Origin: Intrasporangiaceae bacterium URHB0013
GTDB taxonomy: Bacteria; Actinomycetota; Actinomycetes; Actinomycetales; Dermatophilaceae
Length of the DNA stretch: 64,000 nucleotides
Reading direction: 5' to 3'
Assembly: GCA_000620545.1 (NCBI GenBank)
Contig: JIBA01000016.1
Coordinates: forward strand, 248,001 to 312,000
Positions within the stretch are counted from its first letter, which is position 1. Each line of letters starts with the position of its first letter. The notes beneath the pieces were generated by a model, which worked only from the letters and a program-made list of their open reading frames with translations, did no database searches and had not been told where the DNA came from. Of the stretch, positions 1 to 53,439 are shown piece after piece. Both the position numbers and the translations under genes were made by a program.

Positions 1-2995
1 ACTTGTCGCCGCCGAGGTCGAGCCGCAGCGGGGCGTTGGTGCGGTAGTCGCGCTTCCAGTCGAGGTCGAGCACCACGCTCGGGGTGCCGCCGTCGTCGAG
101 GTAGCGGAAGTGCATGGCGCCGGTGCCCAGACGGTCGTCGATCAGCCCGACGAGGTCCTGCATGTTCTGCGGCGGGTGGGCGGAGAGGATGTCGATGGCG
201 TCGTCGAGGGGCGACCGGAAGCTGTATGCCGTGTCGTCCGCGGGCTTGTTCGCCCAGTTCTCCGTCAGGGTGAGGGTGTCCCCCGAGGCCGAGGCGACGA
301 CGGCCACCTGCGTGCCGACGATCACCGTCCGCCCGGCGAACGACGTGTCGAAGGTCCGGCCGACGTGCTGGAGGGTGTTGGCCCCGTAGTTCACGTCGCT
401 GCCCACGCCGGAGGTGTCGCGGCGCATGAGGTCGCGCAGCGACGTTCCGGTGCCGGGGATCTCCTGGCTGTAGATGCCGGACGCGCCGCCCGGCTGGGCC
501 TCGGCGAGCTGGGCCGCGAGCGTCTGCAGCGTCTTGAGGACGATGGCGAAGAGCTCGGACTGCGAGCCCGGCTTGAAGTCCAGCGCGAGGATCCGGTCGA
601 GCCGGCTGAGGTCGAGCTGCGGGCCGTCGGCACCGGACAGCTTGGTCAGGTCGTTCCACGTCGCCGAGACGCCGACGTCGGCGCCGGCGGGGAGGAAGCC
701 GTCGGCCCCGGGGATCGACACGTCGAGGTCGGCGGTCGCCCGCACGTTGACGTCGACGTCGAGCAGGCCACCCGCCTGGCTCGGCCCGGTCGGGCTCGAG
801 GTGACGAGCTGCGCGAAGAGCTGGCGCAGCCGGATGTCGTGCTGCGCGTCGCCGGCCTGCTTGAGGCCGATCGAGAGCATGTGGCCGGACCCGGCCGCGG
901 AGCAGTCCGCCGGGGCGGCGCTGTTGCAGACCTTGAGGTTGCCCTTGAGGCGCACCTGGAAGAAGCCGGCGTTGGCCGTGAAGTCGGCGGCGGTTTCGAT
1001 CGGGAAGTCAGCGGTGAGGAGCGGGCTGCCCGTGCGGACCATGATGCGGTCAGGACCGAGCGGCAGCGAGGTGATGTTCGTCGAGAACGCGCCGGTCTTC
1101 TGCACGAACGGGCAGGCCTCGGTGTTGCCCTCGAAGCCGATGCAGGCGCTGCCGGTACGCGGGTCCTGCAGGTCGAGCACGAGGGTCAGGTCCGCCGCGA
1201 AGGACGGCTTGACCGTCGCGAACGTCTGGGCGGAGTTGGCCTTGAGGATGCCGCGGCGGGGACCGCCCGCCACCGGCTGGTCGGTCAGCTGGTCACCGAA
1301 GGTCACGGCGCCGAGCTGTGCCTCCGGTCCGACGATGACGAAGGGCGTGTTGGCAGAAGGCTGTCCGCCGATCCACGGACCGGCCAGGGTCAGGCCGTTC
1401 TTCGTGTTCGAGGCGATCTCGCCGGCGGACGTCCCCGCCATGACACGCATGCCGGTCCACTGGTTCGCCGTCCACGGCTGGGTGCCGTCGTCGAGAGTGA
1501 GCCCGTTGGCGGCATACGTCGCGGACGGGCGGGAGGTGCGCGCGGCACCGGCGTCCATCGAGACTCCTGCTGACGGGGCCGTCTTCACCATGCGCATGCG
1601 GAAGGCGAGCTTGCTCGTCGTCGCGTCCCAGGCGAGGTTGTCGAGGCCGATCCCCGCGGTCTTGAGCTTGCCGATGAGGTCTTGGAGGGAGTCGAACGTC
1701 GGGTTGCCGACGGTCCCGGCGTCGAAGCCGGGCGGGGCCGGCTGGTCGGGGTCCGGCTGCTGGACGACGTTGGCCTTGAGGAAGTCGACGAGGACCTGGT
1801 TGGCCTTGATCGCGTCGGACACGGTGCCGCGCAGGAACGGCAGGTCGAGGTTGCCGGTCGCCGGCAGCGGGCCGGCGCCGTCGGGGTCGAACTTCGCCTG
1901 CTGGATGCCCGTGAGGGCCGTCGCGACCTGTGCGAGGCCATCGGCCAGGTCACGGAGGCTCATGTTCTGGAACTTGCCGACGAGCGTGGCGAGGCTGGGC
2001 GCCGTGATGCTCGGCGCGCCGGTCGAGATGTCGGGCCAGGCGAGGGTCACGTCCGCGGCGACATTGCTCGGGAAGCTGACTCCCGCGATGCCGCTCGTGT
2101 CCGCAGCGATCGACAGGGTGCCTGTGACCGAGCCGGAGGTCCCGGGGTCGGACGGAGAGCCGGTGGGGTCGAGGCTCGCCGACACGAGTCCTGCCAGGGA
2201 CCCGTCGGCAGCCAGCTCGCCGTCGCCGACGCCCGCCGCGTCGAAGGCGAGCACGCCGTCGTTGTTGGGGTCGTTGACGCGGGCGTACGCGTGGGCCTTG
2301 ACCGTGAAGTCGGTGCTGCTCAGCGTCACGCCGAGGATGCCGACCGCCGCCTTCGCGGCGCCGGAGAGCTGGGCCGTGACGTCGACGTCGAGGCGTGGCG
2401 CATGAGCGGCATCGCTGGCGAGGTAGACACGGTTGGTCGTCGGGCCGGTCCAGACGACCCACAGCGAGAGGGTCGCCTCGACGGTCGCCGTGACGCCCTT
2501 GGGTGAGGACAGCTCCACCTTGGGGCTCGCGGAGCTGACGACGAGCGACTGCTGCGTCGCGGTCCGCGTCACGACGAGGTTGACATGGACACGCTTGCCG
2601 TCGGCCAGGTCGTCGACCGAGATGTCGAGGGTGCCGGAGCGGCCGCCGGGGAGGGAGACCGACTCCCCCGACGTGGCGAGGTCGGCCCACGTCGCCGTGC
2701 CCGCGAGGGCCGTGGCCACTCCTTGCGCGACGAGGTCGTCGACCCCGGCGAGCCCGCCCGGGCTCGCGGACACGAACGGGATCGGCTTCCCGAGCGCGCC
2801 GATGCCGGCCAGCCCCGTGGTCCAGGCGGCGAGGTTCCTCGTGCCGCCGCTCCCGCCCAGCAGCGCCACCACGCGGTCGACCCCCGGATCGGGATCAGCG
2901 GCGAACGCAGGCGACTGGCCCGCCAGCGCTCCCACGACGACGAGGAGCGAGGTGAGACCGGCTCCGAGGGCACGACGAATCGACTTGCGCACCAT
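1..2995 (-). CDS. Large secreted protein, C-terminus beyond the left edge
   Basis: The frame is open from 2995 to the left edge, at least 998 codons, with no stop. The ATG at 2995 follows GGGGAGA, a good ribosome binding site. Residues 1-33 look like a Sec signal peptide: basic start (MVRKSIRR), hydrophobic core, cleavage after AFA. The mature part is rich in Thr, Ser, Asp, Leu and Gly and reads like a beta-rich surface protein. DPNNDGVLAFD at 242-252 resembles a single calcium-binding loop. Two close cysteine pairs, near residues 615-630 and 690-700, could form disulfides. I see no catalytic motif and do not recognise the family. Any anchoring signal would lie outside the window. It is transcribed away from the SRPBCC gene. 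Being coding is well supported; function is unknown. Confidence 0.85.
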   Translation of the reverse strand, partial: MVRKSIRRALGAGLTSLLVVVGALAGQSPAFAADPDPGVDRVVALLGGSGGTRNLAAWTTGLAGIGALGKPIPFVSASPGGLAGVDDLVAQGVATALAGTATWADLATSGESVSLPGGRSGTLDISVDDLADGKRVHVNLVVTRTATQQSLVVSSASPKVELSSPKGVTATVEATLSLWVVWTGPTTNRVYLASDAAHAPRLDVDVTAQLSGAAKAAVGILGVTLSSTDFTVKAHAYARVNDPNNDGVLAFDAAGVGDGELAADGSLAGLVSASLDPTGSPSDPGTSGSVTGTLSIAADTSGIAGVSFPSNVAADVTLAWPDISTGAPSITAPSLATLVGKFQNMSLRDLADGLAQVATALTGIQQAKFDPDGAGPLPATGNLDLPFLRGTVSDAIKANQVLVDFLKANVVQQPDPDQPAPPGFDAGTVGNPTFDSLQDLIGKLKTAGIGLDNLAWDATTSKLAFRMRMVKTAPSAGVSMDAGAARTSRPSATYAANGLTLDDGTQPWTANQWTGMRVMAGTSAGEIASNTKNGLTLAGPWIGGQPSANTPFVIVGPEAQLGAVTFGDQLTDQPVAGGPRRGILKANSAQTFATVKPSFAADLTLVLDLQDPRTGSACIGFEGNTEACPFVQKTGAFSTNITSLPLGPDRIMVRTGSPLLTADFPIETAADFTANAGFFQVRLKGNLKVCNSAAPADCSAAGSGHMLSIGLKQAGDAQHDIRLRQLFAQLVTSSPTGPSQAGGLLDVDVNVRATADLDVSIPGADGFLPAGADVGVSATWNDLTKLSGADGPQLDLSRLDRILALDFKPGSQSELFAIVLKTLQTLAAQLAEAQPGGASGIYSQEIPGTGTSLRDLMRRDTSGVGSDVNYGANTLQHVGRTFDTSFAGRTVIVGTQVAVVASASGDTLTLTENWANKPADDTAYSFRSPLDDAIDILSAHPPQNMQDLVGLIDDRLGTGAMHFRYLDDGGTPSVVLDLDWKRDYRTNAPLRLDLGGDK

Positions 2996-3216
2996 GATTC
3001 TCCCCATGAGGGGGCGCGCCGTGTGCCCGTTCCCTGTGCGAGCCGTGTCCGTCACGCCATCCCTGGGCCCAAGGTATTGAGGCAGAGGTCACATGTCCGG
3101 AAAATCGTCGGAAATGGCGCTGATCCGGTGATAGCGGGATCTCTGTGACCTGTGGGGCGAAAGCGTCGCCGACGCCTCCCGTGCCGACGCGGACGCGTCG
3201 GTGGCAGGATGCCGCC

Positions 3217-6142: not shown

Positions 6143-6352
6143 GAGCACGTTCTCTCCCCACTGCGAGTACCGGACCTGACCGGCGAGCGTGCACCCGAGC
6201 CTAGTCACGGCCGGCGACGACGGGCGCGGCGACCAGCCGAGCTGGTATGCCGTGTCGTGGCCTCGAGGGACGGGCCGGGCCGCCGGCCCGGTCCCGTCGA
6301 CCCGGCCGGCGGCCGCCGCTCCTGCATCCCTCGCGGGCGGCGAGGGAGGGGC

Positions 6353-7024: not shown

Positions 7025-8361
7025 GACGCGCGCGCCGTCGTGATCTGGATCTGGCCGACGCCGACCTCGGCGTCGACGATGATCTGGGGGGTGGCCGTCG
7101 GGGCGCCGAACGTCACCTTCTGCGTCCAGCTCGTGCCCTCGTGCTGGAGCTGGTCCGGGCCGAGGCGCTGCATGCCCTCGCCGGCCACCGTCGGTCCTGT
7201 CGCCAGGAGCTCGCCGGCACGCGCCTTGGCGTTGACGACCACCGTGACGCCCTCGGGGACGACGACGTCGAGCTCGCCGACGCCCATCGTGGCCGTCACG
7301 GTGTCCGGACCGGGAGTTCCCTCGACGTTCGCGTCGCGCAGGTCGACCTTCATCTGGCCGAGACCGAGCTCGAACTCGGGCGCCGGTGTCATCGACGTGA
7401 CCTGGTGGGTCACGTCGCCGACCTGCCACGGCTGGGAGAGCCCGACGGGCGCCGCCGTCGTCGCGGCGGCCGCGATCATGCCGGTCACGGCGAAAAACGC
7501 GAGCCCTCCCGAACGACGGCCGGCGATGCCGGCGACGAGGATGCCGAGCCCCAGCATGCCCAGGCTCGAGGCGATCCCGATCGCGACCGGGTTGCCAGAC
7601 CAGCCGGCGGCGTGCGCCACCGAGGACATGACGACGCCGGTGACGATGGCCAGGCCGAGGACGAGGAGCCCACCGGCGAACCCGATCGACGGGGTCCGCT
7701 CCCGCACCGGCGTCGGTGCGGGCGGTCGAGGTGCCGCGAGCGTCGCACCGGCGTTGGCGGCCGCATTGCCCGTGGAGCCGTATGCCGTCGCGGCCGCAGG
7801 GACCGAGGACGTGGCGCCGGGACCGGGCTGGGTGACCGGGTCGCCGGTCACCGGGTCGACCGAGGTCGTCGCGCCCGGCGCAGTGGGGCCGGGCTTCCTC
7901 CAGGGTGCCTGGGCCATGAGCTCACGTCCGGTGTCGGTCCGGGTCGCGAACCACCAGGCGCCGACGACGACGAGCACGAAGCCGAAGAACCGGAACCCCC
8001 GCGTGTCACCGCCCCACCAGGGTCCCCCGCCGAGCACGGCGATGGCCGTGACGACGAGGAGGAAGATCGAGTGGCCCTCACCGTGCTTGAGGGCCCGCTC
8101 GACGTGGATCTCGCCGCGCTCGTCGGGCATGAGCAGCCACAGCACGAGGTAGAGGGCGACCCCCATCCCGAAGAAGATCGAGAAGAGGATGAAACCCGCT
8201 CGGACGACGAGGGGATCGACGCCGAGCCAGCGGGCCAGGCCCGTCGCGACGCCGGCGAACCAGCGACCGTCTCCTCGGCGCACGATCCCCGGGCGTCGCA
8301 GAGCGGTGTAGAAACCGTCCAGGCCGTGCCCCTGCGGAGGGGCGTCATTGCTTTTCGTCAT
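7021..8361 (-). CDS. PspC domain membrane protein with LiaF-like C-terminal domain
   Basis: A 446-residue protein. Residues about 20-80 are a PspC domain: GRWFAGVATGLARWLGVDP followed by a membrane segment (LFSIFFGMGVALYLVLWLLM) and MPDERG. Further membrane segments follow (FLLVVTAIAVLGG, FFGFVLVVVGAWWF, GGLLVLGLAIVTGVVM, and one more). The C-terminal about 130 residues are beta-rich (MGVGELDVVVPEGVTVVV) and resemble the extracytoplasmic domain of LiaF/YvqF proteins. Start ATG at 8361 (MTKSND). It is divergent from the PspC-histidine kinase gene with only 125 bp between starts, the usual arrangement of an actinobacterial envelope-stress signalling set. Probably senses or modulates the kinase; this is inference. 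Confidence 0.88.
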   Translation of the reverse strand: MTKSNDAPPQGHGLDGFYTALRRPGIVRRGDGRWFAGVATGLARWLGVDPLVVRAGFILFSIFFGMGVALYLVLWLLMPDERGEIHVERALKHGEGHSIFLLVVTAIAVLGGGPWWGGDTRGFRFFGFVLVVVGAWWFATRTDTGRELMAQAPWRKPGPTAPGATTSVDPVTGDPVTQPGPGATSSVPAAATAYGSTGNAAANAGATLAAPRPPAPTPVRERTPSIGFAGGLLVLGLAIVTGVVMSSVAHAAGWSGNPVAIGIASSLGMLGLGILVAGIAGRRSGGLAFFAVTGMIAAAATTAAPVGLSQPWQVGDVTHQVTSMTPAPEFELGLGQMKVDLRDANVEGTPGPDTVTATMGVGELDVVVPEGVTVVVNAKARAGELLATGPTVAGEGMQRLGPDQLQHEGTSWTQKVTFGAPTATPQIIVDAEVGVGQIQITTARAS

Positions 8362-8486: not shown

Positions 8487-10034
8487 GTGCACACGGCATA
8501 CGAGAACGGAACGGGCCCCGCGCGCCCCGCCTGGCGGGCGACACCGCGGCCACCGCTCGTGCGCCAACGGCAGGGCAAGGTCATCGCCGGCGTCGCAGCC
8601 GGGCTCGCCGAGCACCTCGGCGTGCCAGTCGTCGCCGTGCGCGTGGCGCTCGTGCTGACGAGCATCCCGCTCGGCGCGGGGCTGGCCGTCTACGTCTTCC
8701 TCTGGGCCACGATGCGCGAGGTCGGCGACGTCGACCCGGGCGTCGCCGCCGGCCCGAACGGGTCCATGGGCCCGGGAGCCCCGGTCGCCGGGACCGCCGC
8801 AGGCGGCGCTGCCGGGACCACCAGCACGACCACCGGCGTGCGGCACCACGTCGACCTCGCGAGCCTGCGCACGTGGCTGCGCAGCGGCAACCAGGCCGTC
8901 GTCATCACCCTCCTCGGGGTCGGGGCCCTCGCCGTGGCGGGCGCCCTCTGGCTCGGCAGCGCCGGCTTCGACGTGCACGCCGAGGTGATGCTGCCCGTCG
9001 TCGCCATCGTCATCGGGGCCATCTTCTTCTGGTCGCAGCTCGACGACACCGACACCCTCGGCGCGCGCCGACCGGTCCGCTGGATCTGGCTCCTCGTGGG
9101 ACTCGCCCTCACCATTCTCGGGCTCGTCGGGCTGCTCGTCCGCGGAACCAACGTGACCGAGCTGTGGCAGGTTGCTGGCGCCGTGCTCGCCGCACTCGTC
9201 GGCGTCGCCGTGCTGTCGGCTCCGTGGATCCTGCGGCTGTGGAGCAACCTGCGCGTCGAGCAGGCTGCCCGCATCCGCGCCACCGAGCGCGCCGACATCG
9301 CCGCCCACCTGCACGACTCGGTGCTCCAGACCCTGGCCCTCATCCAGCGTCAGTCCGGCGACTCCGCCACCGTGGCGCGGCTCGCGCGAGCCCAGGAGCG
9401 GCAGCTGCGCAGCTACCTGTACGACGAGGACGCCCGTGCCGGCACGCTCGGCGCCGCACTCACCGCGGCGATGGGCGAGGTCGAGGACCTGCACGGCGTC
9501 CCGGTCCAGCTCGTCGTCACCGGCGACCGGCCGATGGACGAGCACCTCGACGCCCTGGTCAAGGCCGTGCGCGAGGCCACGTGGAACGCCGTGCGCCACG
9601 CGAGCCCCCCGGTGAGCACCTACGTCGAGGTCGGGCCCGACGCCGTCGAGGCGTTCGTCCGCGACCACGGCGCGGGCTTCGACCTCGACACCGTGCCCGA
9701 CGACCGCGCCGGAGTCCGCGAGTCGATCATCGGGCGCATGGAGCGCCACGGCGGCACGGCCCGCATCCGCCGGCGCCCCGACGGGACCGAGGTCGAGCTG
9801 CGGCTGCCCGTCAGGCAACCACAGTCGCCCGAGCAGCCCTCGCCCGGCCCGTCCGCCGCCGGCCCCCCGAGCCCCCCGAGCCCCCCGAGCCCCCCGAGCA
9901 CTCCGAGCACTCCGAGCACTCCGAGCAGCACCCCCAGCGGCACTCCGAGCAGCACCCCCAGCGGCACTCCGAGCAGCACTCCCACCGGCACCGTCGCCAC
10001 GCCGGACCCCCAGACCCAGGAGCAGGCTTCATGA
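8487..10034 (+). CDS. PspC-domain sensor histidine kinase (NarL/LiaS type)
   Basis: About 515 residues. A PspC domain opens the protein (QGKVIAGVAAGLAEHLGVPV) and is followed by four to five membrane segments. The HisKA_3 dimerisation box is DIAAHLHDSVLQTLALI with the phospho-His in HLHD. The ATP-binding domain shows the N box (REATWNAVRHA), the G1 box (DHGAGFD) and a G2-like GRMERHGG. The last about 60 residues are a low-complexity Pro/Ser/Thr tail after the kinase fold ends. I prefer GTG at 8487, with GAGGA eight bases upstream; an ATG at 8397 would give a 545-residue form without a clear ribosome site. Its stop overlaps the response regulator start (ATGA). Confidence 0.9.
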   Translation: MHTAYENGTGPARPAWRATPRPPLVRQRQGKVIAGVAAGLAEHLGVPVVAVRVALVLTSIPLGAGLAVYVFLWATMREVGDVDPGVAAGPNGSMGPGAPVAGTAAGGAAGTTSTTTGVRHHVDLASLRTWLRSGNQAVVITLLGVGALAVAGALWLGSAGFDVHAEVMLPVVAIVIGAIFFWSQLDDTDTLGARRPVRWIWLLVGLALTILGLVGLLVRGTNVTELWQVAGAVLAALVGVAVLSAPWILRLWSNLRVEQAARIRATERADIAAHLHDSVLQTLALIQRQSGDSATVARLARAQERQLRSYLYDEDARAGTLGAALTAAMGEVEDLHGVPVQLVVTGDRPMDEHLDALVKAVREATWNAVRHASPPVSTYVEVGPDAVEAFVRDHGAGFDLDTVPDDRAGVRESIIGRMERHGGTARIRRRPDGTEVELRLPVRQPQSPEQPSPGPSAAGPPSPPSPPSPPSTPSTPSTPSSTPSGTPSSTPSGTPSSTPTGTVATPDPQTQEQAS

Positions 10035-10735: not shown

Positions 10736-10840
10736 GCCGGGCCGGCGGGTGGTCGTTGGTGTGGTCACCACGACGCGACGCCGGTGGCACGTCGCCGTCG
10801 CCCACGGCATACGCACCAAGGGTCGTCGGTCTGCGGCCGG

Positions 10841-11671
10841 TCAGTCGGCGTCGGCGACGAAGCGGCGCAGGGCGGTCACGATGATGTCGGGTGCGTCGGT
10901 GTGCACCCAGTGCCCGGCGCCCTTGATCGTGAAGAGCCGCGTCCGCGGGAAGTGGCGGCGCATCCGCTCGCCGTCCTCGCGCTTGACGTAGCGCGAGTCG
11001 CCGCCGGCGACCCAGAGCACGGGGCCGTCGTATGCCGGCAGCTCGTCGACCGCGTCCGGCCAGTCCGCGATGCGCGAGTCCACCCCGAGCGCCGCGTCGC
11101 GGGCGACGAGGTCGAGGTTGACCTGCCAGCGCCATGACTGCCCGTCCCGCCGGAGGTTCTGCAGGAGGAACGCCTTGACGCCCGGGTCCGGCTCGGTGAA
11201 GCGCGCCTCGGCGTCGCCGCGGCTCGTCAGCTCGCCGAGCGGCAGGCCCTGCATCTCGCGGATGTAGCCCTCGAACCGCTCGAGCGAGCCGTAGCCCTTG
11301 GGCGCGATGTCGACGACGACGAGCCGGTTGACGCGCCCGGGATGGCGCAGGGCGAGCACCATGGCGACCTTGCCGCCGAGGGAGTGTCCGACGACGGCCC
11401 ACCGCTCCCCCGGAGCTACCGATCGCAGCGTCGCCGCCACGGCGTCGGCGTAGGCGTCGAGCGAGAACTCCTGTGACCACGGCGACCGGCCGTGGTCCGG
11501 GAGGTCGACGAGCAGGCAGCGTGCCTCCGTGCCGTCCGCGCCGCTGACCGCCTTGGCGATCTGGTTCCAGTTGCGACCCTGGCCGAAAAGACCGTGCAGG
11601 AAGGCGATCCGGGGCCCGGCGGCGCCCACGGACAGGGTGTTGAGCGAGGCCTGCTGGGGAGCCGAGGTCAT
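10841..11671 (-). CDS. Alpha/beta hydrolase (YbfF/EphB-like)
   Basis: A 276-residue alpha/beta hydrolase. Visible are the oxyanion region (FLHGLFGQGRNW), the nucleophile elbow GHSLGG, the acid region near LWVAGGDSRYV, and the catalytic His in GAGHWVHTDAP. Substrate unknown; YbfF-type esterases with this HGLFG signature act on short acyl esters. ATG at 11671 gives the normal N-terminus. It stands alone, convergent with the response regulator gene. Confidence 0.9.
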   Translation of the reverse strand: MTSAPQQASLNTLSVGAAGPRIAFLHGLFGQGRNWNQIAKAVSGADGTEARCLLVDLPDHGRSPWSQEFSLDAYADAVAATLRSVAPGERWAVVGHSLGGKVAMVLALRHPGRVNRLVVVDIAPKGYGSLERFEGYIREMQGLPLGELTSRGDAEARFTEPDPGVKAFLLQNLRRDGQSWRWQVNLDLVARDAALGVDSRIADWPDAVDELPAYDGPVLWVAGGDSRYVKREDGERMRRHFPRTRLFTIKGAGHWVHTDAPDIIVTALRRFVADAD

Positions 11672-13389: not shown

Positions 13390-15578
13390 TGACCACCGAC
13401 CTGATGGAGTCAGGGAACGGCGAACTGGGAACGTGCGTCGACGTCCACTCGCGCACGTCCCGTGCGCTCGAAGCGGATGCACCCTCCGAGCGGGCGGGCG
13501 TCGCGACCCACTGCGCCTACTGCGGGCTCCAGTGCGCCATGACGCTGACCGGAAGCACAACCACCGACCTCGCGGTGGCGCCCCGGCGGTTCCCGACGAA
13601 CCGCGGCGGCCTCTGCCAGAAGGGGTGGACGAGCGCCGAGCTGCTGCGCGCGCCGGGGCGCCTGACGACCCCGCTCGTGCGGAGGGACGGTGAGCTGGTG
13701 CCCGCGTCGTGGGACGACGCCCTCGGCATCGTGGCCGACGCCATCGTGAGGACGCAGACGGCATACGGCCGGGACGCCGTGGCGGTGTTCGGCGGCGGGG
13801 GGCTGACGAACGAGAAGGCATACCAGCTGGGCAAGTTCGCGCGCGTGGCGCTCCGAACGAGCCAGATCGACTACAACGGCCGCTGGTGCATGAGCTCCGC
13901 AGCCGCTGCGGGCATCCGCTCGTTCGGCCTCGACCGCGGGCTCCCCTTCCCGGTCACCGACATCGGGTCGGCGCACGCGGTGCTGCTGCTCGGAGCCAAC
14001 CCCGCCGAGACGATGCCGCCCTTCCTGACGCACCTCGTCCGCGCCGCCGAGGCCGGCGGCCTCATGGTGGCTGACCCGCGCCTGACGCCGACCGCCGCCA
14101 AGGCGGTGGACGGCGGCGGACTCCACCTGCAGCTGCGCCCCGGCAGCGACGCCGCGCTGGCCCTCGGCATGCTCCACCTCGCCGTCACCGAGGGGTATGC
14201 GGACCGTCACTTCATCGCCGAGCGCACCTCGGGCTTCGACGACCTGTGGCCGATCGCCGCACAGTGGCTGCCCGAGCGCGTCGAGCGCGTCACGGGCGTC
14301 GCCGTGACGACGATGCGCGCTGCCGTCGCGGCGCTGGCCCGGGCGCGCGACACCGAGCGCGGCGCCTACATCCTCTCGGCTCGCGGCACCGAACAGCACG
14401 CGACCGGCACCGACACGGTCTCGGCGTGCATCGGGCTCGCCCTCGCCCTGGGGCTGCCCGGCAACCCCGGCACCGGCTACGGCACCATCACGGGCCAGGG
14501 CAACGGACAAGGCGGTCGGGAGCACGGCCAGAAGGCGGACCAGCTGCCCGGCTACCGCAAGATCGACGACCCAGCGGCTCGTGCCCACGTCGCGGCCGTC
14601 TGGGGCGTCGACCCCGCAGACCTGCCCGGCCCCGGGCGCAGCGCCTTCGAGCTGTTGTCGGCCCTGGGCACCGACGGTGGACCTCGGGTGCTGATGGTCC
14701 ACGGGAGCAACCCCGTCGTGTCAGCGCCCGACGCACGTGTCGTCAGCGAGCGCCTCACGGCCCTCGACCTGCTCATCGTGTCGGACTTCGTCCTGTCCGA
14801 GACCGCCGCCGTCGCCGACGTCGTGCTGCCCGTCCTCCAGTGGGCCGAGGAGGAGGGCACGCTCACCAACCTCGAGGGACGGGTCCTGCGCCGGCGCCGA
14901 GCACTCACCGCGCCCGTCGGATGCCGGAGCGAACTCGAGATCTGGAGCGAGCTCGCAGGCCGGATAGGGTGCAGCACAGACTTCCCCACCGACCCACGGA
15001 CCGTCTTCGACGAGCTGCGGCGTGCGTCGGCCGGCGGACCGGCCGACTACTCAGCGGTGACGTGGGAGCGGCTCGATGCGGGCGAGAGCCTGCACTGGCC
15101 GTGCAGCACCGAGCGCCCCCAGGGCACGCCTCGGCTGTTCCTCGACGCCTTCGCCACTCCCGACGGGCTGGCCCGGTTCGTGCCGGTCGACCACGTCGGT
15201 CCTGCGGAGGCAGACGACGCGGAGTTTCCCCTCGTCGCCACGACGGGCCGGGTGCTCCAGCACTACCAGTCCGGCGCCCAGACACGCCTCGTCGCTGAGC
15301 TCTGCGCCTCCGCCGGCGAGATGTTCGTCCAGGTGCACCCCGACACCGCCTCGGCCGTTGGACTCGGGGAGGGCGACCTGGCCGACGTCGTCAGCCGTCG
15401 CGGACGCACCCGCGCCGCCGTCCGCGTCGACGAGGACATGCGCGCCGACGTCGTCTTCCTCCCGTTTCACTGGGGCGGAGAAGCGCGGGCGAACTCCCTG
15501 ACGCACGCCGCCCTCGACCCGACCAGCCGCATGCCGGAGTTCAAGGCGTGCGCCGTCCGCCTGGAGGCCATCGCATGA
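13389..15578 (+). CDS. nasA: Assimilatory nitrate reductase catalytic subunit (molybdopterin)
   Basis: A 729-residue molybdopterin oxidoreductase. The N-terminal [4Fe-4S] motif is C42-x2-C45-x3-C49 ... C76. RWCMSS places Cys167 as the likely molybdenum ligand, the Nas/Nap type rather than the Asp of NarG. The cofactor-binding domains follow (LLGANPAET, VADPRLTPTA) and the C-terminal dinucleotide-binding domain contains TTGRVLQHYQSGAQTR. No Tat signal, so cytoplasmic. ATG at 13389 shares one base with the transporter stop. It reduces nitrate to nitrite, with electrons probably supplied by the next gene product. Confidence 0.93.
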   Translation: MTTDLMESGNGELGTCVDVHSRTSRALEADAPSERAGVATHCAYCGLQCAMTLTGSTTTDLAVAPRRFPTNRGGLCQKGWTSAELLRAPGRLTTPLVRRDGELVPASWDDALGIVADAIVRTQTAYGRDAVAVFGGGGLTNEKAYQLGKFARVALRTSQIDYNGRWCMSSAAAAGIRSFGLDRGLPFPVTDIGSAHAVLLLGANPAETMPPFLTHLVRAAEAGGLMVADPRLTPTAAKAVDGGGLHLQLRPGSDAALALGMLHLAVTEGYADRHFIAERTSGFDDLWPIAAQWLPERVERVTGVAVTTMRAAVAALARARDTERGAYILSARGTEQHATGTDTVSACIGLALALGLPGNPGTGYGTITGQGNGQGGREHGQKADQLPGYRKIDDPAARAHVAAVWGVDPADLPGPGRSAFELLSALGTDGGPRVLMVHGSNPVVSAPDARVVSERLTALDLLIVSDFVLSETAAVADVVLPVLQWAEEEGTLTNLEGRVLRRRRALTAPVGCRSELEIWSELAGRIGCSTDFPTDPRTVFDELRRASAGGPADYSAVTWERLDAGESLHWPCSTERPQGTPRLFLDAFATPDGLARFVPVDHVGPAEADDAEFPLVATTGRVLQHYQSGAQTRLVAELCASAGEMFVQVHPDTASAVGLGEGDLADVVSRRGRTRAAVRVDEDMRADVVFLPFHWGGEARANSLTHAALDPTSRMPEFKACAVRLEAIA

Positions 15579-25861: not shown

Positions 25862-25878
25862 GCCCCAAGGAGTTCCGT

Positions 25879-25929: not shown

Positions 25930-25954
25930 GGTCTCAGGCAGCGCCTGACGGAGG

Positions 25955-32319: not shown

Positions 32320-32504
32320 GTGAGTGCGCTCCTCGAAGCACTGGGTGCCACGACCCGCGAATGGGCGTGGCGACTGTCCCCAAGGGTAAGCGAACGCACC
32401 CCACCGGAAGGTTCCCGCGCGCGCCCGGGACCGCGCCGAAACCCGATCGTGACGCGCGTCGGCCGGCAGCTGGTAGCCCGGCGCCGCGGCATACTGGGGA
32501 CCCC

Positions 32505-36878: not shown

Positions 36879-38551
<1,673 letters not shown>

Positions 38552-40102: not shown

Positions 40103-40148
40103 CCCGTATGCCCGGGCATCACCTGTGGTCGTATGCCGGCCGGCAGGC

Positions 40149-41737: not shown

Positions 41738-44700
41738 CTACGGGGCGCTCACGCTGGATCTCGCCGCGCCCGGCGAGGCGGCCGACGACGCGCCGGCCGC
41801 GGCCGCGATGTCGTCGAGCAGGACGGCCGTGATCAGCTGCCGCGCCCACGTCAGGACCTCCACGTCACGCAGCGGCTTGCCGCCGACGCGCGCCGTCATC
41901 GGGACCGGGACGAGGATCGTGCCGAGGGCCTCCTTGACGATCGTGCCCGGGTAGAGGCGCATGAGCCGCAGCTGCTGGCTCTCGCGCAGCTCCTTGACCG
42001 GGCCGAACCGCACGACCTTGCCCTGCACCCCGATGTCGCCGATGCGGGCGGCGCGGGCCACGACGCGGAGCCGGGCGACCTCGAGGAGGTTCTGGACGGG
42101 CGTGGGCGGGGCGCCGTAGCGGTCGCGGAGCTCGGCGTCGATCTCGTCGACGGCCTCGAAGGTCTCGACGGTCGCGAGCTTCTTGTAGGCCTCGAGGCGC
42201 AGCCGCTCCCCCGGCACGTAGTCGTGTGGTAGGTGGGCGTCGACGGGCAGCTCGATCTTGATCTCGGCGGGCAGGTCGACGGCGTCGCCACGGAAGTCGG
42301 CCACGGCCTCGCCGATGAGGCGGACATAGAGGTCGAAGCCGACGCCCTGGATGTGGCCCGACTGCTCGCCGCCGAGCAGGTTGCCGGCGCCGCGGATCTC
42401 GAGGTCCTTCATGGCGACCGCCATCCCGGAGCCGAGGTCGGTGTTGCTGGCGATGGTGCGCAGACGGTCGTGCGCCGTCTCGGTCATCGGCTTCTCGGGC
42501 GGGTAGAGGAAGTAGGCGTAGGCGCGCTCGCGGCCACGTCCGACACGGCCGCGGAGCTGGTGCAGCTGCGAGAGGCCGAGCATGTCGGAGCGCTCGACGA
42601 TGAGGGTGTTGGCGTTGGAGATGTCGAGGCCGGTCTCGACGATCGTCGTGCACACGAGCACGTCGAAGCGCTTCTCCCAGAAGTCCTCGACGACCTGTTC
42701 GAGCTTGTGCTCTCCCATCTGGCCGTGGGCGGTGGCGATGCGCGCCTCGGGGACGAGCTCGCGCAGCCGCGCCGCGGCCTTCTCGATGCTGCTGACCTTG
42801 TTGTGCACGAAGAAGACCTGGCCCTCACGGAGCAGCTCGCGGCGGACGGCCGCGGTGATCTGCTTCTCGTCGTAGGGACCGACGAAGGTGAGCACCGGGT
42901 GGCGCTCCTCGGGCGGCGTTGCCAGAGTGGACATCTCGCGGATTCCGGTCACCGCCATCTCGAGGGTGCGCGGGATCGGGGTGGCCGACATCGACAGGAC
43001 GTCGACGGCCGTGCGCATCGTCTTGAGCAGCTCCTTGTGCTCGACGCCGAAGCGCTGCTCCTCGTCGATGATGACGAGACCGAGGTCCTTGAACGTCACG
43101 TCCTTGGCGAGCAGGCGGTGCGTGCCGATGACGAGGTCGATCGTGCCGTCGGCCATGCCGGCCATGACGTCCTTGGCCTCCTTGTCGCTCTGGAAGCGCG
43201 ACAGCGAGGAGACCTTGACCGGGAACTGGGAGTAGCGCTCGGCGAAGGTCTGCTGGTGCTGGCTGACGAGCAGGGTCGTCGGCACGAGGACCGCGACCTG
43301 CTTGCCGTCCTGGATCGCCTTGAACGCCGCGCGCACCGCGATCTCGGTCTTGCCGTAGCCCACGTCGCCACAGATGAGCCGGTCCATCGGGACCTGCTTC
43401 TCCATGTCGGCCTTGACCTCGTCGATGCTGACCAGCTGGTCCGGGGTCTCGACGTAGCCGAAGGCGTCCTCGAGCTCGCGCTGCCATGGGGTGTCGGGCG
43501 CGAACGCGTGACCCTTGGTGGCCTGACGGGCGCTGTAGAGCCGGATGAGGTCGGCGGCGATCTGCTTGACGTAGCGCTTGGCTCGCGACTTCGTCTTGGT
43601 CCAGTCGGAGCCGCCCATCTTGTTGAGCGTGGGCTCCTCCCCGCCGACGTACTTCGTCACCTGGTCGAGCTGGTCGGTGGGCACGAAGAGCCGGTCCCCG
43701 GGCTGCCCACGCTTGCTCGGGGCGTACTCGATGACGAGGTACTCGCGCGTCGCGCCGGCCACGGTGCGCTGCATCATCTCGACGAAGCGACCGACACCGT
43801 GCTGCTCGTGGACGACGTGGTCACCCGGGCGCAGCTGGAGGGGGTCGACCTGGTTGCGGCGGCGCGACGGCATACGCCGCATGTCCTTCGTGGACGTGCC
43901 GCTCCCGGGCTGGCCGGTCAGGTCGGTCTCGGTGAGCACCTCGACGCGCGCCCCCTCGTGGACGAAGCCGCGACCGAGCGGGGCCGTCGTGACGTGCACC
44001 CAACCCGGCTCGAGCGAGTCGTCCCGGGTGGTGTCGAGGGGACGGACCGCGACCTCGTGCTCGCCCAGCACCTCGGCGACACGCTTGGCGAGACCGGGCC
44101 CCTCGGTGACGACGGCGACGGCCCAGCCTTCGCGGACCCGCTCGCGCAGGTGCTCGACGGCCCGGTCGGTGTCGCCGCGGAAGGCGTCGGGGTCGGTGGT
44201 GCGCACCGCCAGGCGCTCGTCGACGTCGTCGTCCTCGATGACGAGCTCTGCGTCGGCCGCAAAGGGCGTGAGGGTCCACCAGGCGCGCCCGGTGCGCTCG
44301 GCGAGGGCACGCACCTCGGCGAGTGACCAGTACGACGCGCTGCCGAGCAGCGACTGGAGGTCGACGGGCACCTGGTTGCCGGCGGCGGCGTTGGCCCAGC
44401 TCGCCTCGAGGAACTCCTCGCTCGTCGCGACGAGGTCGTGCGCGCGGCGCCGCACCCGCTCCGGATCGGCGAGCAGCACGGTCGAGCGCTGCGGCAGGAC
44501 GTCGAGGACCGACTCCATGCCGTCGACGAGGGCCGGCGCGAGGGACTCCATGCCCTCGACGGCGATGCCCTCGGCGACCTTGGAGAGCATCTCGGCGACC
44601 CCTGGGAGCTGGTCGGCGAGCGCCCGAGCGCGGGCGCGCACGGCGTCGGTGAGGAGCAGCTCGCGGCACGGCGGCGCCCAGAGCCCGTGCTCGGCGATCT

Positions 44701-45448
44701 CGAGGGACCGCTGGTCGGCGACCTTGAACCAGCGCACCTCCTCGACGGTGTCGCCCCAGAACTCGATGCGGACCGGGTGCTCCTCCGTGGGCGGGAAGAC
44801 GTCGAGGATCCCGCCACGCACGGCGAACTCGCCGCGCCGCTCGACGAGGTCGGTGCGCGTGTAGGCGGCAGCGACGAGTGCGTCGACGACGTCCTCGAGG
44901 GGGCGCTCGTCGCCCGCGCGCAGCGCGACGGGCACGAGCTCGCCGAGCCCCTTGGTCAGCGGTTGGAGGAGGGCGCGCACGGGCGCGACGACCACCGAGA
45001 GCGGGCCGTATGCCGGGTCGTTCGGGTCGGGGTGCGCGATCCGTCGCAGCACGGCCAGTCGCCGGCCGACGGTGTCGCTGCGAGGCGAGAGACGCTCGTG
45101 CGGCAGCGTCTCCCACGACGGGAACACGGCGATGCGGTCCGCTGAGAGGAAGAGGCCGAGCGCGCTCGCGAGGTCCTCGGCCTCGCGAGTCGTCGCGGTG
45201 ACGACGACGAGCGGGGCCGGCTCCGTGGCCGGCCCGGTGGTGACCGGCACGGTGGTGGCGGGCGCGGCGGCGTTCCGGTCCAGAGCGCCGGCTCGGGACC
45301 CGTCGGCCTGCTGGGCCAGCGCCGCCACGAGGAACGGCCGCGTGCCGTCGCTCGCGGAGACGTCGACGAGGCGGGCACGCCCCACCTGGTCGAGGACGTG
45401 GCGGACATCGGGAAGCGCCCTGAAGGCGGACAGCAGTGGGTGCGGCAT
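41738..45448 (-). CDS. mfd: Transcription-repair coupling factor
   Basis: A 1236-residue Mfd. Order: UvrB-like N-terminal domains, RNA polymerase interaction domain ([17 protein letters not shown] ... YLVIEYA), and RecG-like helicase with Walker [10 protein letters not shown] near residue 695, DEEQ box [13 protein letters not shown], and [14 protein letters not shown]; the TRCF C-terminal domain follows. It removes stalled RNA polymerase and recruits UvrA. ATG at 45448 follows GGAGG. Arg-Met-Pro near the middle is read through a GGCATAC motif in a different frame from the usual. Confidence 0.97.
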
Positions 45449-47289: not shown

Positions 47290-48420
47290 TCATCGGGACG
47301 GCATACGCCCCAGCACCCACTCGTCGGTGAACGTCCCTCCGGCTCCGCGCACGAAGCCGAAGCGCAGCTCGGTGGACGTGACCCGGAGGTCGGCGAACCC
47401 GTACGTCGGGTTCCGTGCCGTTCCGGACGCGGTCGCGAAGTAGCCACTCTCCGGGCTCGTCGCGGAGACCGGTCGCAGGTCGACGCCGCCTGTGCCGACC
47501 GTCGCGAACACCGTCCCGGCGCCGGCGACCATGGACGCGTCGGCGTCGACGACGCACGCGGGCGAGTAGGACCCGACCGTGACGCGGCCGCAGCCCTCGC
47601 CCTCCCGCAGCTGCTTGGTGCGCTGGTACAGGTGCTCGTGCCCGGAGAGCACGACGTCGACCCGTTCGGAGACGAGCAGGTGCAGCAGGTCCGGGCCGAC
47701 GGGGCACCCGTAGCGGCCCATCGTGAGGCAGGACTCGTGCATGGCGACGACCACCCACCGGATGCCGGCCCGTCGGGCGCCGTCGATCGCCGCCGCCGTC
47801 CACGCATAGCGAGCCGACCCTGCCGTGTAGTGCCACGTGCCGTCGGGGAAGGTCAGTGCCGGCGAGATGAGCACGACGCGCACGAGGGGCGCGGCGTGCG
47901 GGAGGTCGACGTAGTACTGCCGCGCGTACTGGCCGACGATGCCGGGGAGCCGGTTGGGCAGGCACTCCTCGAACCGGTCGATGGACCCGTTGCCGCCGCT
48001 GCTCTCGTGGTTGCCGGCGAGAAGCTGGAAGGGAAAGGTCGTGCCGACGTGCGAGGTCACGAAGGAGCACCAGGCCTGCTCTCCGCCGGCCGAGCCGTAG
48101 GAGAGGTCACCGAGTGCGAGGTGCGCATCGGAACCGCCCGCCGCAAGGGCCTCGAGCACACCAGCGGTGTTCGCCGTGGCGCCGTAGTCCCCGGCCGCTG
48201 TCAGGTGCACGCTGGTCGGGTTAGCGGTCGAGCGCGCGGAGCCCGCGCGCGGTGCGCTCGTGGGGCGCGGCGACAAGGGGGTCGAGGTGGCGGTCGCCCC
48301 CCGGGCATCCGAGGCCGCTGGAGCGGCCGGGACCGGGCGGTCACCCTGCGAGGCGCATGCGGCCGGGCCGGCCAGGGTGAGGACTCCCAGCACGCCGACC
48401 ACGGCTCGACGCCACTGCAC
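47290..48420 (-). CDS. Exported purple-acid-phosphatase-like metallophosphoesterase
   Basis: About 376 residues. The N-terminus RRAVVGVLGVLTLAGPAAC is a signal peptide with a lipobox-like end (the -3 Pro is unusual, so secretion rather than lipid anchoring is possible). Calcineurin-like metal motifs are AAGDYGAT, LALGDLSYG, LLAGNHESSG, VVVAMHESC and VVLSGHEHLYQR. A beta domain follows to the C-terminus. GTG at 48420 is chosen because the following residues form the signal; an upstream extension would remove it. Likely a phosphomonoesterase at the cell surface. Confidence 0.87.
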   Translation of the reverse strand: MQWRRAVVGVLGVLTLAGPAACASQGDRPVPAAPAASDARGATATSTPLSPRPTSAPRAGSARSTANPTSVHLTAAGDYGATANTAGVLEALAAGGSDAHLALGDLSYGSAGGEQAWCSFVTSHVGTTFPFQLLAGNHESSGGNGSIDRFEECLPNRLPGIVGQYARQYYVDLPHAAPLVRVVLISPALTFPDGTWHYTAGSARYAWTAAAIDGARRAGIRWVVVAMHESCLTMGRYGCPVGPDLLHLLVSERVDVVLSGHEHLYQRTKQLREGEGCGRVTVGSYSPACVVDADASMVAGAGTVFATVGTGGVDLRPVSATSPESGYFATASGTARNPTYGFADLRVTSTELRFGFVRGAGGTFTDEWVLGRMPSR

Positions 48421-48430
48421 TCTCGTCAGT

Positions 48431-50148: not shown

Positions 50149-50173
50149 GGGTCGGCGCAGCCCACGACGCACG

Positions 50174-50216
50174 GAGGGCGTATGCCGCCGGGCGCGTCCC
50201 GACGGCATACGCCCTC
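50174..50216. terminator. 19-bp hairpin with paired heptamer, bidirectional terminator
   Basis: GAGGGCGTATGCCG (50174-50187) pairs perfectly with CGGCATACGCCCTC (50203-50216); after one mismatch four more pairs close a CGCGT loop. It lies between the convergent CGNR and prs stops. As at 25879, the stem is built from a GTATGCC/GGCATAC pair. Confidence 0.8.
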
Positions 50217-50233
50217 GTCGTGTGGGGAGGCGC

Positions 50234-51214: not shown

Positions 51215-52704
51215 CCCTGGGCGTCCTTCGTCTCGGTGGTCGGCTCGGCCGGCTCGGTGGTCGGCTCGGTGGTCGGCTGGTCCTGCGCGGCTCGGGCGGC
51301 CTCGTCGGTCTTCGTGCCGGCACGGCGGCGGGCGACCCAGCCGTCGACGTTGCGCTGCTGGACGCGGGTCACCGCGAGCTGGCCGGCGGCGACGTCGCTC
51401 ACGACCGCGGACCCCGCGGCGACGTAGGCACCGTCGGCGATCGTCCGCGGAGCCACGATGACCGAGTTGCTCCCGACGAAGCTGTGGGCGCCGACGTTCG
51501 TGTGGCTCTTCGTGACGCCGTCGTAGTTGGCGAAGATCGTGCCGGCACCGATGTTGGCGCCCTCGCCGATGGTCGCGTCGCCGCAGTAGGTCAGGTGCGG
51601 GACCTTGGCGCCCGCGCCGATGTCCGCGTTCTTCGTCTCGACGAAGCCGCCGATCTTGCCCTGGGCTCCGAGGCGGGTGCCAGGACGCAGGTAGGAGAAG
51701 GGCCCGACGCTTGCGCCGGGCCCGATCTCGGCCAGCTCCGCCTGCGTGCGGACGACGCTCGCGCCGTCGCCGACCTCGACGTCGGTCAGCGTCGTGTCGG
51801 GGCCGATGACGCAGTCGCGACCGATCGTGCTCGCCCCGAGGATCTGGGTGCCGGGGCGCACGACCGTGTCGGGACCGATGGTCACGTCGGCGTCGAGCCA
51901 CGTGGTCGCCGGGTCGATGACGATCGCACCGTCGCGCATCGCCCGCTCGACGGTGCGTCGGTTGAGCTCAGCCCCGAGACGGGCGAGCTGGACCTTGTCG
52001 TTGACCCCTTCGGTCTGCCACAGGTCGGCGACGAGGTGCGCGCGGACTCCCAGACCACGTCCACGAGCGATCGCGATGACGTCGGTGAGGTACTTCTCGC
52101 CCTGGGCGTTGTCGGTGCCCACCTCGGAGAGCGCCTCGCGCAGGACCGCGGCGTCGAAGGCATACAACCCGCTGTTGACCTCGCGGATCGCGCGCTGCTG
52201 CTCGTCGGCGTCCTTCTGCTCCACGATGGCGACCACCGAGCCCTCGGGGTCACGGACGACGCGGCCGTAGCCGGTGGGGTCCGCAAGCGTCGCCGTGATC
52301 ACGCTGACGGCGCTGCCGGCCGCGTGGTGCGCCGCGACGAGATCCTCGAGGGTCTCGCTCGTGAGCAACGGCACGTCGCCGTAGGTGACGACGACCGTGC
52401 CGGCGAGGTCACCGGGTAGTGCCTCGAGCGCGCACTCGACGGCGCGGCCCGTGCCCTTGACGTCGTCCTGGTCGGCGACGACCGCCTCAGGGTCGACCTG
52501 CGACACGTGCTCTGCGACGCGGTCGCGCTCGTGTCGCACGACGACGGCGAGGTGGTGCGGGCTCGTGCCCCTCGCCGCCCGGATCGCGTGGGCCACGAGA
52601 CTGCGGCCGCCGATCGTGTGGAGGACCTTGGGGGTCGTGGACTTCATGCGTGTGCCCTCACCGGCGGCGAGGACGATCACGGCGGTCGGCCGTAGATCGC
52701 TCAC
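51211..52704 (-). CDS. glmU: Bifunctional GlmU (N-acetylglucosamine-1-phosphate uridyltransferase/glucosamine-1-phosphate acetyltransferase)
   Basis: A 497-residue GlmU. The uridyltransferase half opens AVIVLAAGEGTRMKSTTPKV and contains VTYGDVPLLT; the left-handed beta-helix half has hexapeptide repeats (IGPDTVVRPGTQILG; IGPFSYLRPG-type VGPFSYLRPGTRLG) and the acetyltransferase His/Asn region VETKNADIGAGAKVPHL. The last about 45 residues are a Thr/Glu/Pro-rich tail. GTG at 52704 follows AAGGAG ten bases upstream. It makes UDP-GlcNAc for peptidoglycan. Confidence 0.97.
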   Translation of the reverse strand: MSDLRPTAVIVLAAGEGTRMKSTTPKVLHTIGGRSLVAHAIRAARGTSPHHLAVVVRHERDRVAEHVSQVDPEAVVADQDDVKGTGRAVECALEALPGDLAGTVVVTYGDVPLLTSETLEDLVAAHHAAGSAVSVITATLADPTGYGRVVRDPEGSVVAIVEQKDADEQQRAIREVNSGLYAFDAAVLREALSEVGTDNAQGEKYLTDVIAIARGRGLGVRAHLVADLWQTEGVNDKVQLARLGAELNRRTVERAMRDGAIVIDPATTWLDADVTIGPDTVVRPGTQILGASTIGRDCVIGPDTTLTDVEVGDGASVVRTQAELAEIGPGASVGPFSYLRPGTRLGAQGKIGGFVETKNADIGAGAKVPHLTYCGDATIGEGANIGAGTIFANYDGVTKSHTNVGAHSFVGSNSVIVAPRTIADGAYVAAGSAVVSDVAAGQLAVTRVQQRNVDGWVARRRAGTKTDEAARAAQDQPTTEPTTEPAEPTTETKDAQG

Positions 52705-53022
52705 AGGGCGCAGCTCCTTTTTGGATCGGGGTGCACTCGGGTGCGTACGACCCCGGCCCAGAAGGGCGCCGGGGTGCGCCTCGGCCATGCTACTCGCGGG
52801 CCGTGGAGGCGCCGCCCCCGCCGTGGGAGCGCCGCCGTGACCCTCCACGTGCTCATCGGCGGCGCAGGTTCGTGCCCGGGGCCAAACGGCGTCGCGTGGG
52901 TTCGCCGTGACAGGTCCTGTCGTGCCGCATCGAGCATGTCGCCATCAGCCCCGGTCTCGTCGGTCAAGAGGTTTTGGTCCGGTCGGCAGGCCCCCACACC
53001 GTTCGTCGCTAGGTTCGGCGAC
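52705..53022. other. Intergenic region between glmU and the RidA-family gene
   Basis: 318 bp separating divergent genes, so promoters of both lie here. No tRNA or conserved element is apparent. Confidence 0.5.
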
Positions 53023-53439
53023 ATGACCCAACCAGCCAGCATCGTCCGGTTGATCCGATCGGACGCCCTCACAGACACCGCGCCCTACGCGTATGCCGCC
53101 ACGACCGACGGGCCGGCCCGCCTCGTCTTCGCGGCGGGGTCCTGCCCGCTCGACGATGCGGGCGCCACCGTGGCGCCCGGCGACATCGCGGCCCAAGCCA
53201 GGCAGTGCGTCGACAACATGGTCGAGGCCCTGGCGGCGGCCGGCGCGACCATGCGCGACGTCGTCTACACACGCGTGCTCGTCGCGACGACGGTGCGCGA
53301 GGACCTCGTCGCGGCGTGGACGGTGGTGCACGACGCGTTCGGAGACCACGAGGTGCCGAGCACCCTGCACGGCGTGACCGTGCTCGGCCACCCCGACCAG
53401 CTCGTCGAGATCGAGGCCGTCGCCGCCCTCGGCCCGTGA
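53023..53439 (+). CDS. RidA/YjgF-family protein
   Basis: A 138-residue RidA-superfamily protein. It shows YAYAATTDGPARLVFAAGSC, QCVDNMVEALAAAGATMRDV and VYTRVLVATT, and HGVTVLGHPDQLVEIEAVA. Canonical RidA deaminates reactive enamine/imine intermediates using an Arg near VEIEAVA-type ends; that Arg is absent from the C-terminal VEIEAVAALGP, so it may be another Rid subgroup. ATG at 53023. It contains the last GTATGCC motif of the window. Confidence 0.9.
   Translation: MTQPASIVRLIRSDALTDTAPYAYAATTDGPARLVFAAGSCPLDDAGATVAPGDIAAQARQCVDNMVEALAAAGATMRDVVYTRVLVATTVREDLVAAWTVVHDAFGDHEVPSTLHGVTVLGHPDQLVEIEAVAALGP

Follow-up and report, generated by a model that had tools for sequence, protein, structure and literature searches.

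The window analyzed here, by which we mean the entire stretch of 64,000 bases (71.6% GC), corresponds to C14:248001-312000 of a Terrabacter genome that comprises 4,567,713 bases in 17 contigs. The Mfd protein encoded in the window (41738-45448, minus strand) shows up to 95% identity, in the best segment, to Terrabacter/Terracoccus proteins, and a tree places it among them. Across genes and intergenic regions, the window carries 38 copies of the heptamer GTATGCC, 19 on each strand, with the first copy at position 224 and the last one ending at 53097. This recount agrees exactly with an earlier sequence-only reading of the window, and the existence of the over-represented word is certain.

In the genes, the word takes several registers relative to the codons (separated by hyphens hereafter). 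It is read as nnG-GCA-TAC at 224-230 (+, in the gene 2-2995 on the minus strand), 7780-7786 (+), 11030-11036 (+), 13760-13766 (-), 13817-13823 (-), 17298-17304 (-), 18351-18357 (-), 27575-27581 (-), 34716-34722 (+) and, within mfd, 45008-45014 (+). The register nnG-TAT-GCC is found at 1511-1517 (-), 15976-15982 (+), 20103-20109 (+), 24204-24210 (-), 33252-33258 (+), 35220-35226 (-), 39007-39013 (+), 52159-52165 (-) and 53091-53097 (+), and nGT-ATG-CCn at 31305-31311 (-), 43869-43875 (-, in mfd) and 47300-47306 (-). The rare ATA codons that had been singled out near 22217 and 31119 indeed belong to copies in the register GGC-ATA-C, at 22214-22220 (+) and 31117-31123 (+).

Intergenic copies are located at 6245-6251 (+), 8495-8501 (-), 10806-10812 (-), 22968-22974 (+), 32488-32494 (-, adjoining a tRNA-Leu), 38351-38357 (-), 38469-38475 (-), 40106-40112 (+) and 40131-40137 (+); the copy at 24581-24587 (+) lies 2 bp ahead of a called start and counts as intergenic under the present gene calls. 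The remaining copies form two inverted pairs, each flanked by convergent genes. The pair at 25881-25927 (left arm 25881-25887, +; right arm 25921-25927, -) is predicted to form a long hairpin with a free energy of -55.8 (25865-25945), and that at 50180-50210 (left arm 50180-50186, +; right arm 50204-50210, -) a hairpin of -40.5 (50170-50225).

Markov models of orders 1, 2 and 3 predict 1.8, 2.6 and 4.4 copies of GTATGCC on both strands of the window, and the word ranks first among the window heptamers by the order-3 z-score. Another heptamer high in the ranking, CAAAGTT, was rejected as a genome word: its rank stems from a local feature, namely two 32-bp tandem-repeat arrays in opposite orientations (20172-20579; 4.5 and 7.2 copies). 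In 464 kb of the genome, GTATGCC occurs 226 times compared to 24.6 expected at order 3, and in the whole genome, there are 2156 copies (1063/1093 on the two strands) versus 188/203 for the reversed pattern of the word, which served as the control. Thus, the word appears about once per 2 kb, counting both strands. Its full extent is greater than was first reported. The enrichment of the heptamer stands, but the heptamer is not the complete unit: in the 464 kb, C precedes it in 64% of the copies and G follows in 91%, then T (47%) or C (34%), with little farther out except codon periodicity. The word is therefore CGTATGCCG, which is present in 1251 copies genome-wide (604/647; reversed control 102/130, a figure inflated by the motif itself because the two patterns share seven letters) and in 135 copies in the 464 kb, compared to 5.1 expected at order 3.

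The sequence-only reading had named Markov models of order 4-5 as the decisive null, and these do yield expectations of 15.4 and 35.5 for the window, the latter close to the 38 copies seen, and of 99 and 212 for the 464 kb. By its wording, the refuting outcome named there has thus been obtained. However, the approach to the observed count results from the motif's own 5- and 6-mers feeding such models. We replaced them with a null built from the protein sequences and the codon usage outside the motif, computed on 464 kb (390 genes, 86% coding, called by a purpose-written script alone) and on 80 kb. Under this null, 18.5 coding copies are expected in the 464 kb, whereas 178 of the 226 copies are coding. 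When synonymous codons were shuffled in the 80 kb, GTATGCC came first by a wide margin.

The excess is distributed unevenly among the reading frames: 103 copies versus 4.9 expected for nnG-TAT-GCC, 51 versus 8.5 for nnG-GCA-TAC, 13 versus 0.3 for GGC-ATA-C, 9 versus 3.8 for nGT-ATG-CC, and 2 versus about 1 for the remaining two frames. Hence, of the proposed independence of frame and strand, the strand part holds and the frame part does not: all six frames occur, but two of them contain 154 of the 178 coding copies. Such a preference is expected if a DNA word is fitted where synonymous change permits. The word accounts for 103 of the 238 TAT codons and 13 of the 31 ATA codons in the 464 kb; in G381, the genome with the most copies (119 kb examined), it takes 44 of 92 TAT and 8 of 17 ATA codons. 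The 48 intergenic copies in the 464 kb correspond to a density about 1.7 times the coding one, and in a larger sample of 784 kb, the density was 0.8-1.2 per kb in intergenic DNA versus 0.43 in genes. No other GTATGNN word exceeds 0.5 per 10 kb, compared to 4.9 for GTATGCC. Among five control words, CCGTATG/CATACGG, which overlaps CCGTATGCC, was raised in two frames (16 versus 2.0 and 15 versus 4.3), and GTACGCC fell below expectation in its main frame on both strands (59 versus 83 and 30 versus 52).

Sequence conservation was assessed by aligning 23 kb around mfd from the window and eleven relatives, which gave 32 motif columns; the comparisons are not independent, given that one site enters many pairs. 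Among seven Terrabacter-like sequences, the motif was intact in 310 of 430 comparisons (72%), compared to 26 of 334 (8%) for other heptamers with TAT/ATA in the same place, 72 of 217 (33%) for GTACGCC, 258 of 428 (60%) for the control words GCATGCC/GGATGCC and 52% for all heptamers with four G/C. Towards Humibacillus, Intrasporangium and T. aerolatus, the motif was intact in 136 of 321 comparisons (42%) and the other TAT/ATA heptamers in 0 of 236; the values for GTACGCC, for GCATGCC/GGATGCC and for four-G/C heptamers were 40 of 161, 152 of 304 (50%) and 39%, respectively. Several of the 32 columns are filled in one lineage only, so that the sites turn over. The coding excess, the codon shuffle and the retention within Terrabacter together support selection on DNA rather than on protein, as originally suggested.

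The two strands are used equally, not only in the window and genome-wide but also around the chromosome. In 20 evenly spaced 20-kb stretches of the single-contig chromosome of G384, we counted 185 plus and 199 minus copies with no heterogeneity (chi-square p=0.43), and the most biased division into halves gave 102/118 and 83/81; in 20 stretches of the Terrabacter genome itself, the count was 94/94 (p=0.52). A strand bias by replichore, as is typical of Chi and of the FtsK-orienting polar sequences (KOPS), was thus not found in the 20 stretches of either genome, which makes KOPS or an ordinary Chi unlikely, in accord with the earlier argument from strand equality. Runs of plus copies in one motif listing were considered as a sign of polarity and discarded, as the plus density is about the genome average; we take them for an effect of the listing.

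The spacing of the copies in 504 kb is near exponential (coefficient of variation 0.95), with two gaps longer than 10 kb compared to 1.8 expected, that is, no excess of long gaps. The motif-free stretch after 53097 extends to 64587. A gap of this size is expected by chance, and we therefore rejected the possibility that 53098-64000 is a genomic island. Ten proteins are encoded at about 53-64 kb, six of them with telling Pfam matches (PAS-ANTAR, hydrolase, RibD_C, arylmalonate decarboxylase, SnoaL/glyoxalase and methyltransferase), besides RidA (Ribonuc_L-PSP) and three proteins without a match. Elsewhere in the window, ARAGORN predicts a tRNA-Val at 9768-9847, which is absent from the Rfam search listing at the gathering score.

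The word is confined to one family of the order and is missing from some close relatives within it. Among 297 genomes sampled from the order, 24 belong to the family, and each of the other 273 contains at most 60 copies of the 9-mer, mostly near the controls. A survey of the family covered 186 genomes from 53 genera (genomes and genera are denoted here by our handles, G and g), with a genus classed as high, in our own grouping, if at least one of its genomes exceeded 150 copies of CGTATGCCG. By this grouping, 30 genera are high, three are intermediate (79-112 copies; in one of these, g102, the control itself reaches 69) and the other 20 do not rise above background (at most 59 copies). Motif-poor genomes also occur inside rich genera, namely G302 (10 copies, g3), G367 (4, g121) and G395 (16, g12). 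In g12, the copy number ranges from 16 to 765 across 31 genomes, a natural series for gain or loss.

In the named loci examined, mostly of 18-24 kb, many copies are present in Terrabacter, Humibacillus xanthopallidus, Intrasporangium oryzae, Knoellia, Tetrasphaera australiensis, a Lapillicoccus and two Arsenicicoccus, and few or none in Phycicoccus, Mobilicoccus, Dermacoccus, Arsenicicoccus piscis, Intrasporangium flavum and Humibacillus sp. DSM 29435. On a tree of Mfd (57 rows, built by a quick method), the high label requires 6 changes compared to 18.8 in shuffles. This distribution fits one old gain followed by losses, although several gains are also possible.

Different words, likewise dense and evenly distributed between the strands, are present in some sister genera, as became apparent when parts (60-80 kb each) of 16 motif-poor or weak genomes were searched. 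In G452 (g135), CGGATGCCG, which differs from the Terrabacter word by one base, occurs 50 times (22/28) versus 3.1 expected at order 2; in coding DNA, there are 25 copies versus 2.7 by codon shuffle. The flanks match those in Terrabacter (C before in 65% and G after in 94%), and 32 of the 79 copies of GGATGCC in this genome are intergenic. In genus g9, which lacks GTATGCC, an unrelated word, CGAAGGGGG, was found on both strands of all five genomes sampled (35 copies in 80 kb of one, and 22, 25, 28 and 37 in 60 kb of the others), at 16-19 times the order-2 expectation. By codon shuffle, CGAAGGGGG is raised 6-8-fold in four of these genomes, and in G343, only its inner 8-mer is among the five words listed. 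Eleven other genomes contain at most 1.4 copies per 80 kb.

A weaker dialect may be represented by CGTACGCCG in g97/g123, with 35 copies in G373 versus 4.2 expected and 26 in G298 versus 3.5; both CGTACGACG and CGTACGCCG exceed the Markov and the codon-shuffle expectation in these genomes, and G136 gives a weak CGTACGCCG signal. Because other GTACG words are also raised in G373 and G298, this dialect is only suggestive. No sharp word emerged from 80 kb each of G367, G302, G435, G458, G313 (judged without the codon test) and G329, where the raised words include GGCGTCGTAC (G367) and GGTCTAC (G302). Nor did we count GATGCGG of G366 (37/32) as a dialect, since it occurs mostly in two frames and is intergenic in only 6 of 69 copies, even though the codon shuffle shows it raised and it may yet prove to be one; in the coding DNA of the same genome, CACCGCATC is present in 14 copies versus 0.9 by codon shuffle.

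A small number of motif copies are predicted to form intergenic hairpins. Folding of six inverted pairs gave five strong structures (z from -5.6 to -9.0; two in the window, one in L108 and two in G384), the sixth, in L165, being unremarkable (z -0.6). Among pairs within 50 bp, we counted 10 inverted and 2 direct in 400 kb of G384, and 5 inverted and 1 direct, all intergenic, in 80 kb of G452. In a first sample, 13 sites lay between convergent genes in 7.4 kb, or 1.76 per kb.

The word also appears to be thinned around HK97 capsid genes. Nine of 40 genomes had a capsid match, and seven rich genomes were used, with G301 (contig end) and G368 (weak match) left out. The central 10 kb contained 20 copies in total and the outer 30 kb 103, that is, 20 in 70 kb compared to 103 in 210 kb (one-sided p=0.014). 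The dip is clear in the Terrabacter genome of the window (0 central/19 outer copies, with a 14.7-kb gap), G449 (1/15) and G421 (4/29). The Tetrasphaera phage TJE1 has 3 copies of GTATGCC, compared to 2.3 expected, and no copy of the 9-mer. A phage capsid gene and a neighboring PF01555 methyltransferase gene lie at about 233339-235469 of C12 of G000, in a 14.7-kb motif-free stretch that might be a small prophage.

The Terrabacter genome encodes a candidate apparatus for DNA uptake. Both comEC and comEA are located on C15, and there are two tad loci, one at C1:83378-88242 (ATPase, two T2SSF proteins, a 71-residue protein, TadE, a match-less protein and a TadE/G-like protein) and one at C2:63347-71906 (two Flp pilins, TadE, RcpC, a ParA-like protein, ATPase and two T2SSF proteins). 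A further candidate, the second strong HHH_3 match in Terrabacter, was discarded as a competence gene, given that it lies in Tex, an ordinary protein. According to a study of Micrococcus luteus (PMC4322843), transformation requires two tad clusters, of the Flp/Tad-pilus type, and the combination of tad and com genes is described as frequent across the actinobacterial lineage.

Considering these lines of evidence, we regard a DNA uptake sequence (DUS) with dialects as the best explanation of CGTATGCCG, and a reasonably probable one; here, we infer rather than observe uptake itself, its role as the selecting force, the competence of Terrabacter and the existence of a receptor. Our best inference is that the word works like a DUS, with the assignment as a DUS conditional on uptake being demonstrated. 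Under this model, CGTATGCCG would let competent Terrabacter and related bacteria prefer DNA of their own kind in natural transformation. A putative surface protein, most likely a minor Tad/Flp pilin or some other protein associated with com, would bind the word while the incoming DNA is still double-stranded, after which ComEA and ComEC would take in one strand. Fragments bearing the word would be taken up and recombined more often, so that alleles with the word would spread, and the word would accumulate wherever codons and intergenic DNA permit. Of the three candidates put forward at the outset, namely an uptake sequence, a modification site and a site of a nucleoid protein, it is the first that best fits the family restriction, the dialects and the com and tad genes; the second fares poorly, as three methyltransferase families do not track the word, and the third retains some plausibility.

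Several observations weigh against the interpretation of the word as a DUS. Reports of uptake or transformation in these bacteria did not appear in the literature consulted for the analysis. None of the comparisons of comEC, HHH_3, TadE, pilus ATPase and ComEA revealed a gene that tracks the word: comEC and HHH_3 are present in 42 of 42 genomes, TadE in 35 of 35 and the pilus ATPase family in 185 of 186, with or without the word. Thus, the proposed search for competence genes did find comEA and comEC in the Terrabacter genome, but the presence of com and tad genes in motif-poor relatives as well means that they allow, rather than prove, the uptake interpretation. PilM, a component of type IVa pili, was detected in 7 of the 186 genomes and in none of the nine Terrabacter genomes, which led us to reject the type IVa pilus as the uptake machine and makes a ComP-like pilin of such a machine unlikely. 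The spacing of the motif is random. Long-range retention is no better than that of average DNA, despite being far above that of other TAT/ATA words: the 42% hardly exceeds the 39% for four-G/C heptamers and is below the 50% for GCATGCC/GGATGCC. In 784 kb of Terrabacter DNA, the 13 pairs within 50 bp include 7 inverted and 6 direct ones, with no excess of the former, and the excess between convergent genes weakened to 1.21 versus 1.08 and 0.80 per kb (p=0.086). The dip around capsid genes is clear in only three of the seven genomes and missing in G442 (7/18), G383 (3/5) and G080 (4/13).

The alternative that survives best, albeit an unlikely one, is that the word is the binding site of a chromosome-organizing or nucleoid-associated protein of the family, with more than 1000 non-polar sites and a specificity that changed between genera. 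Random spacing, even strand use, the location of sites both in genes and between them and the retention within Terrabacter are all in accord with such a protein, as is the patchy but clustered presence on the Mfd tree. It does not, however, predict the one-base dialects and the unrelated word of g9, the long hairpins in which words are paired or the shortage of copies near some phage capsid genes, and we are not aware of any nucleoid protein that recognizes a sharp word of 9 bp at more than 1000 sites.

More doubtful still is a recombination signal of the Chi type, which a helicase-nuclease would recognize at broken DNA ends but which would have no polarity in the chromosome. The copy number of CGTATGCCG is about that of Chi, and a short non-palindromic word that differs between lineages and is retained within Terrabacter would suit such a signal. 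However, Chi favors the leading strand, whereas no bias is seen in the stretches or in any half of the G384 chromosome, and hairpins of paired words would have no role there. Furthermore, dialects, which speak against the nucleoid-protein and Chi-like alternatives alike, are a familiar trait of DUS (PMC3630211).

We give little credence to a conserved methyltransferase or restriction-modification system acting at the word, or to a linked repair or mutation bias as its source. Some methylation and restriction systems typically have non-palindromic words of 6-9 bp, but within the three families searched in 35 genomes, no methyltransferase common to the motif-rich genomes was found. Of the 21 rich and 14 poor genomes, 6 and 6 contain PF01555, 12 and 5 contain PF00145, and 13 and 10 contain PF02384, respectively. 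All three families are absent from the motif-rich genomes G444, G034 and G381, the last of which has the highest copy number among the 186. A mutation bias at a single position, for its part, would not be expected to enrich frames that require changes at different positions. Finally, a side effect of codon-pair preference, named earlier as a possible refutation, or of a preference for the dipeptides Tyr-Ala and Ala-Tyr would agree with the concentration of coding copies in two frames, but it can be practically dismissed for the bulk of the signal, because those frames contain 154 copies versus 13.4 expected, GGC-ATA-C is enriched as well, the word is denser in intergenic DNA and the other GTATGNN words are rare.

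Should the word indeed be a DUS, sequence-specific uptake would be a repeated evolutionary outcome, reached in another phylum and with another kind of pilus; a receptor in Tad/Flp systems would await description; and Terrabacter, Knoellia, Tetrasphaera and their relatives would be routinely competent. Uptake sequences have so far been described only in Neisseriaceae and Pasteurellaceae, and a 2025 paper (PMC12616744) likewise names only two families with uptake words. In our searches of the open-access literature for GTATGCC and for uptake sequence combined with actinobacteria, Actinomycetota or Terrabacter, there was no report of such a word among the matches listed; with whole-word matches only, CGTATGCCG returned none and CGGCATACG one crystallography paper. 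We consider it marginally favored by the evidence that the family represents a third independent origin of DUS, and the first in Gram-positive bacteria, through a Tad/Flp-type pilus, and that it uses three words or more (CGTATGCCG, CGGATGCCG and an unrelated one, CGAAGGGGG). The unrelated word in g9, if real in this sense, would imply that receptor specificity was replaced wholesale and hence that g9 is genetically isolated. Natural controls are at hand in the dialects and in the poor genomes that occur within rich genera.

Among the known repeated words, HIP1 (highly iterated palindrome 1) of cyanobacteria is highly repeated, lineage-restricted and palindromic, and its function is debated; CGTATGCCG resembles it in the first two respects but is not a palindrome. 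Chi and KOPS are short, over-represented, lineage-specific and strand-biased by replichore, the last of which CGTATGCCG is not. The uptake signal sequence (USS) of Pasteurellaceae has an extended AT-rich flank, whereas the flanks here show little beyond codon periodicity, and both the phylum and the type of pilus differ. Similarly to CGTATGCCG, USS is a genome-enriched 9-bp word with two dialect types, according to PMC12616744. The paper on M. luteus (PMC4322843) does not mention the term uptake sequence, but the gene set needed there is matched in Terrabacter by comEA, comEC and the two tad loci. The DUS of Neisseriaceae differ in several ways from the word described here, which is found in an actinobacterium with no type IVa PilM in Terrabacter and Tad/Flp genes instead, has the core GTATGCCG rather than a CTG-centered one, is accompanied by an unrelated word in g9, shows no excess of inverted pairs in Terrabacter and has only a putative receptor; that ATGCCG is also contained in DUS12, ATGCCGTCTGAA, is probably a coincidence. 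Nevertheless, according to PMC3630211 and PMC5031613, the Neisseriaceae DUS are short words in many copies, in coding and intergenic DNA and with inverted pairs in hairpins, that are confined to one family, form dialects between genera and are missing from some members (inverted pairs in hairpins and dialects, PMC3630211), and CGTATGCCG is like them in these traits, although only a few of its copies lie in hairpins.

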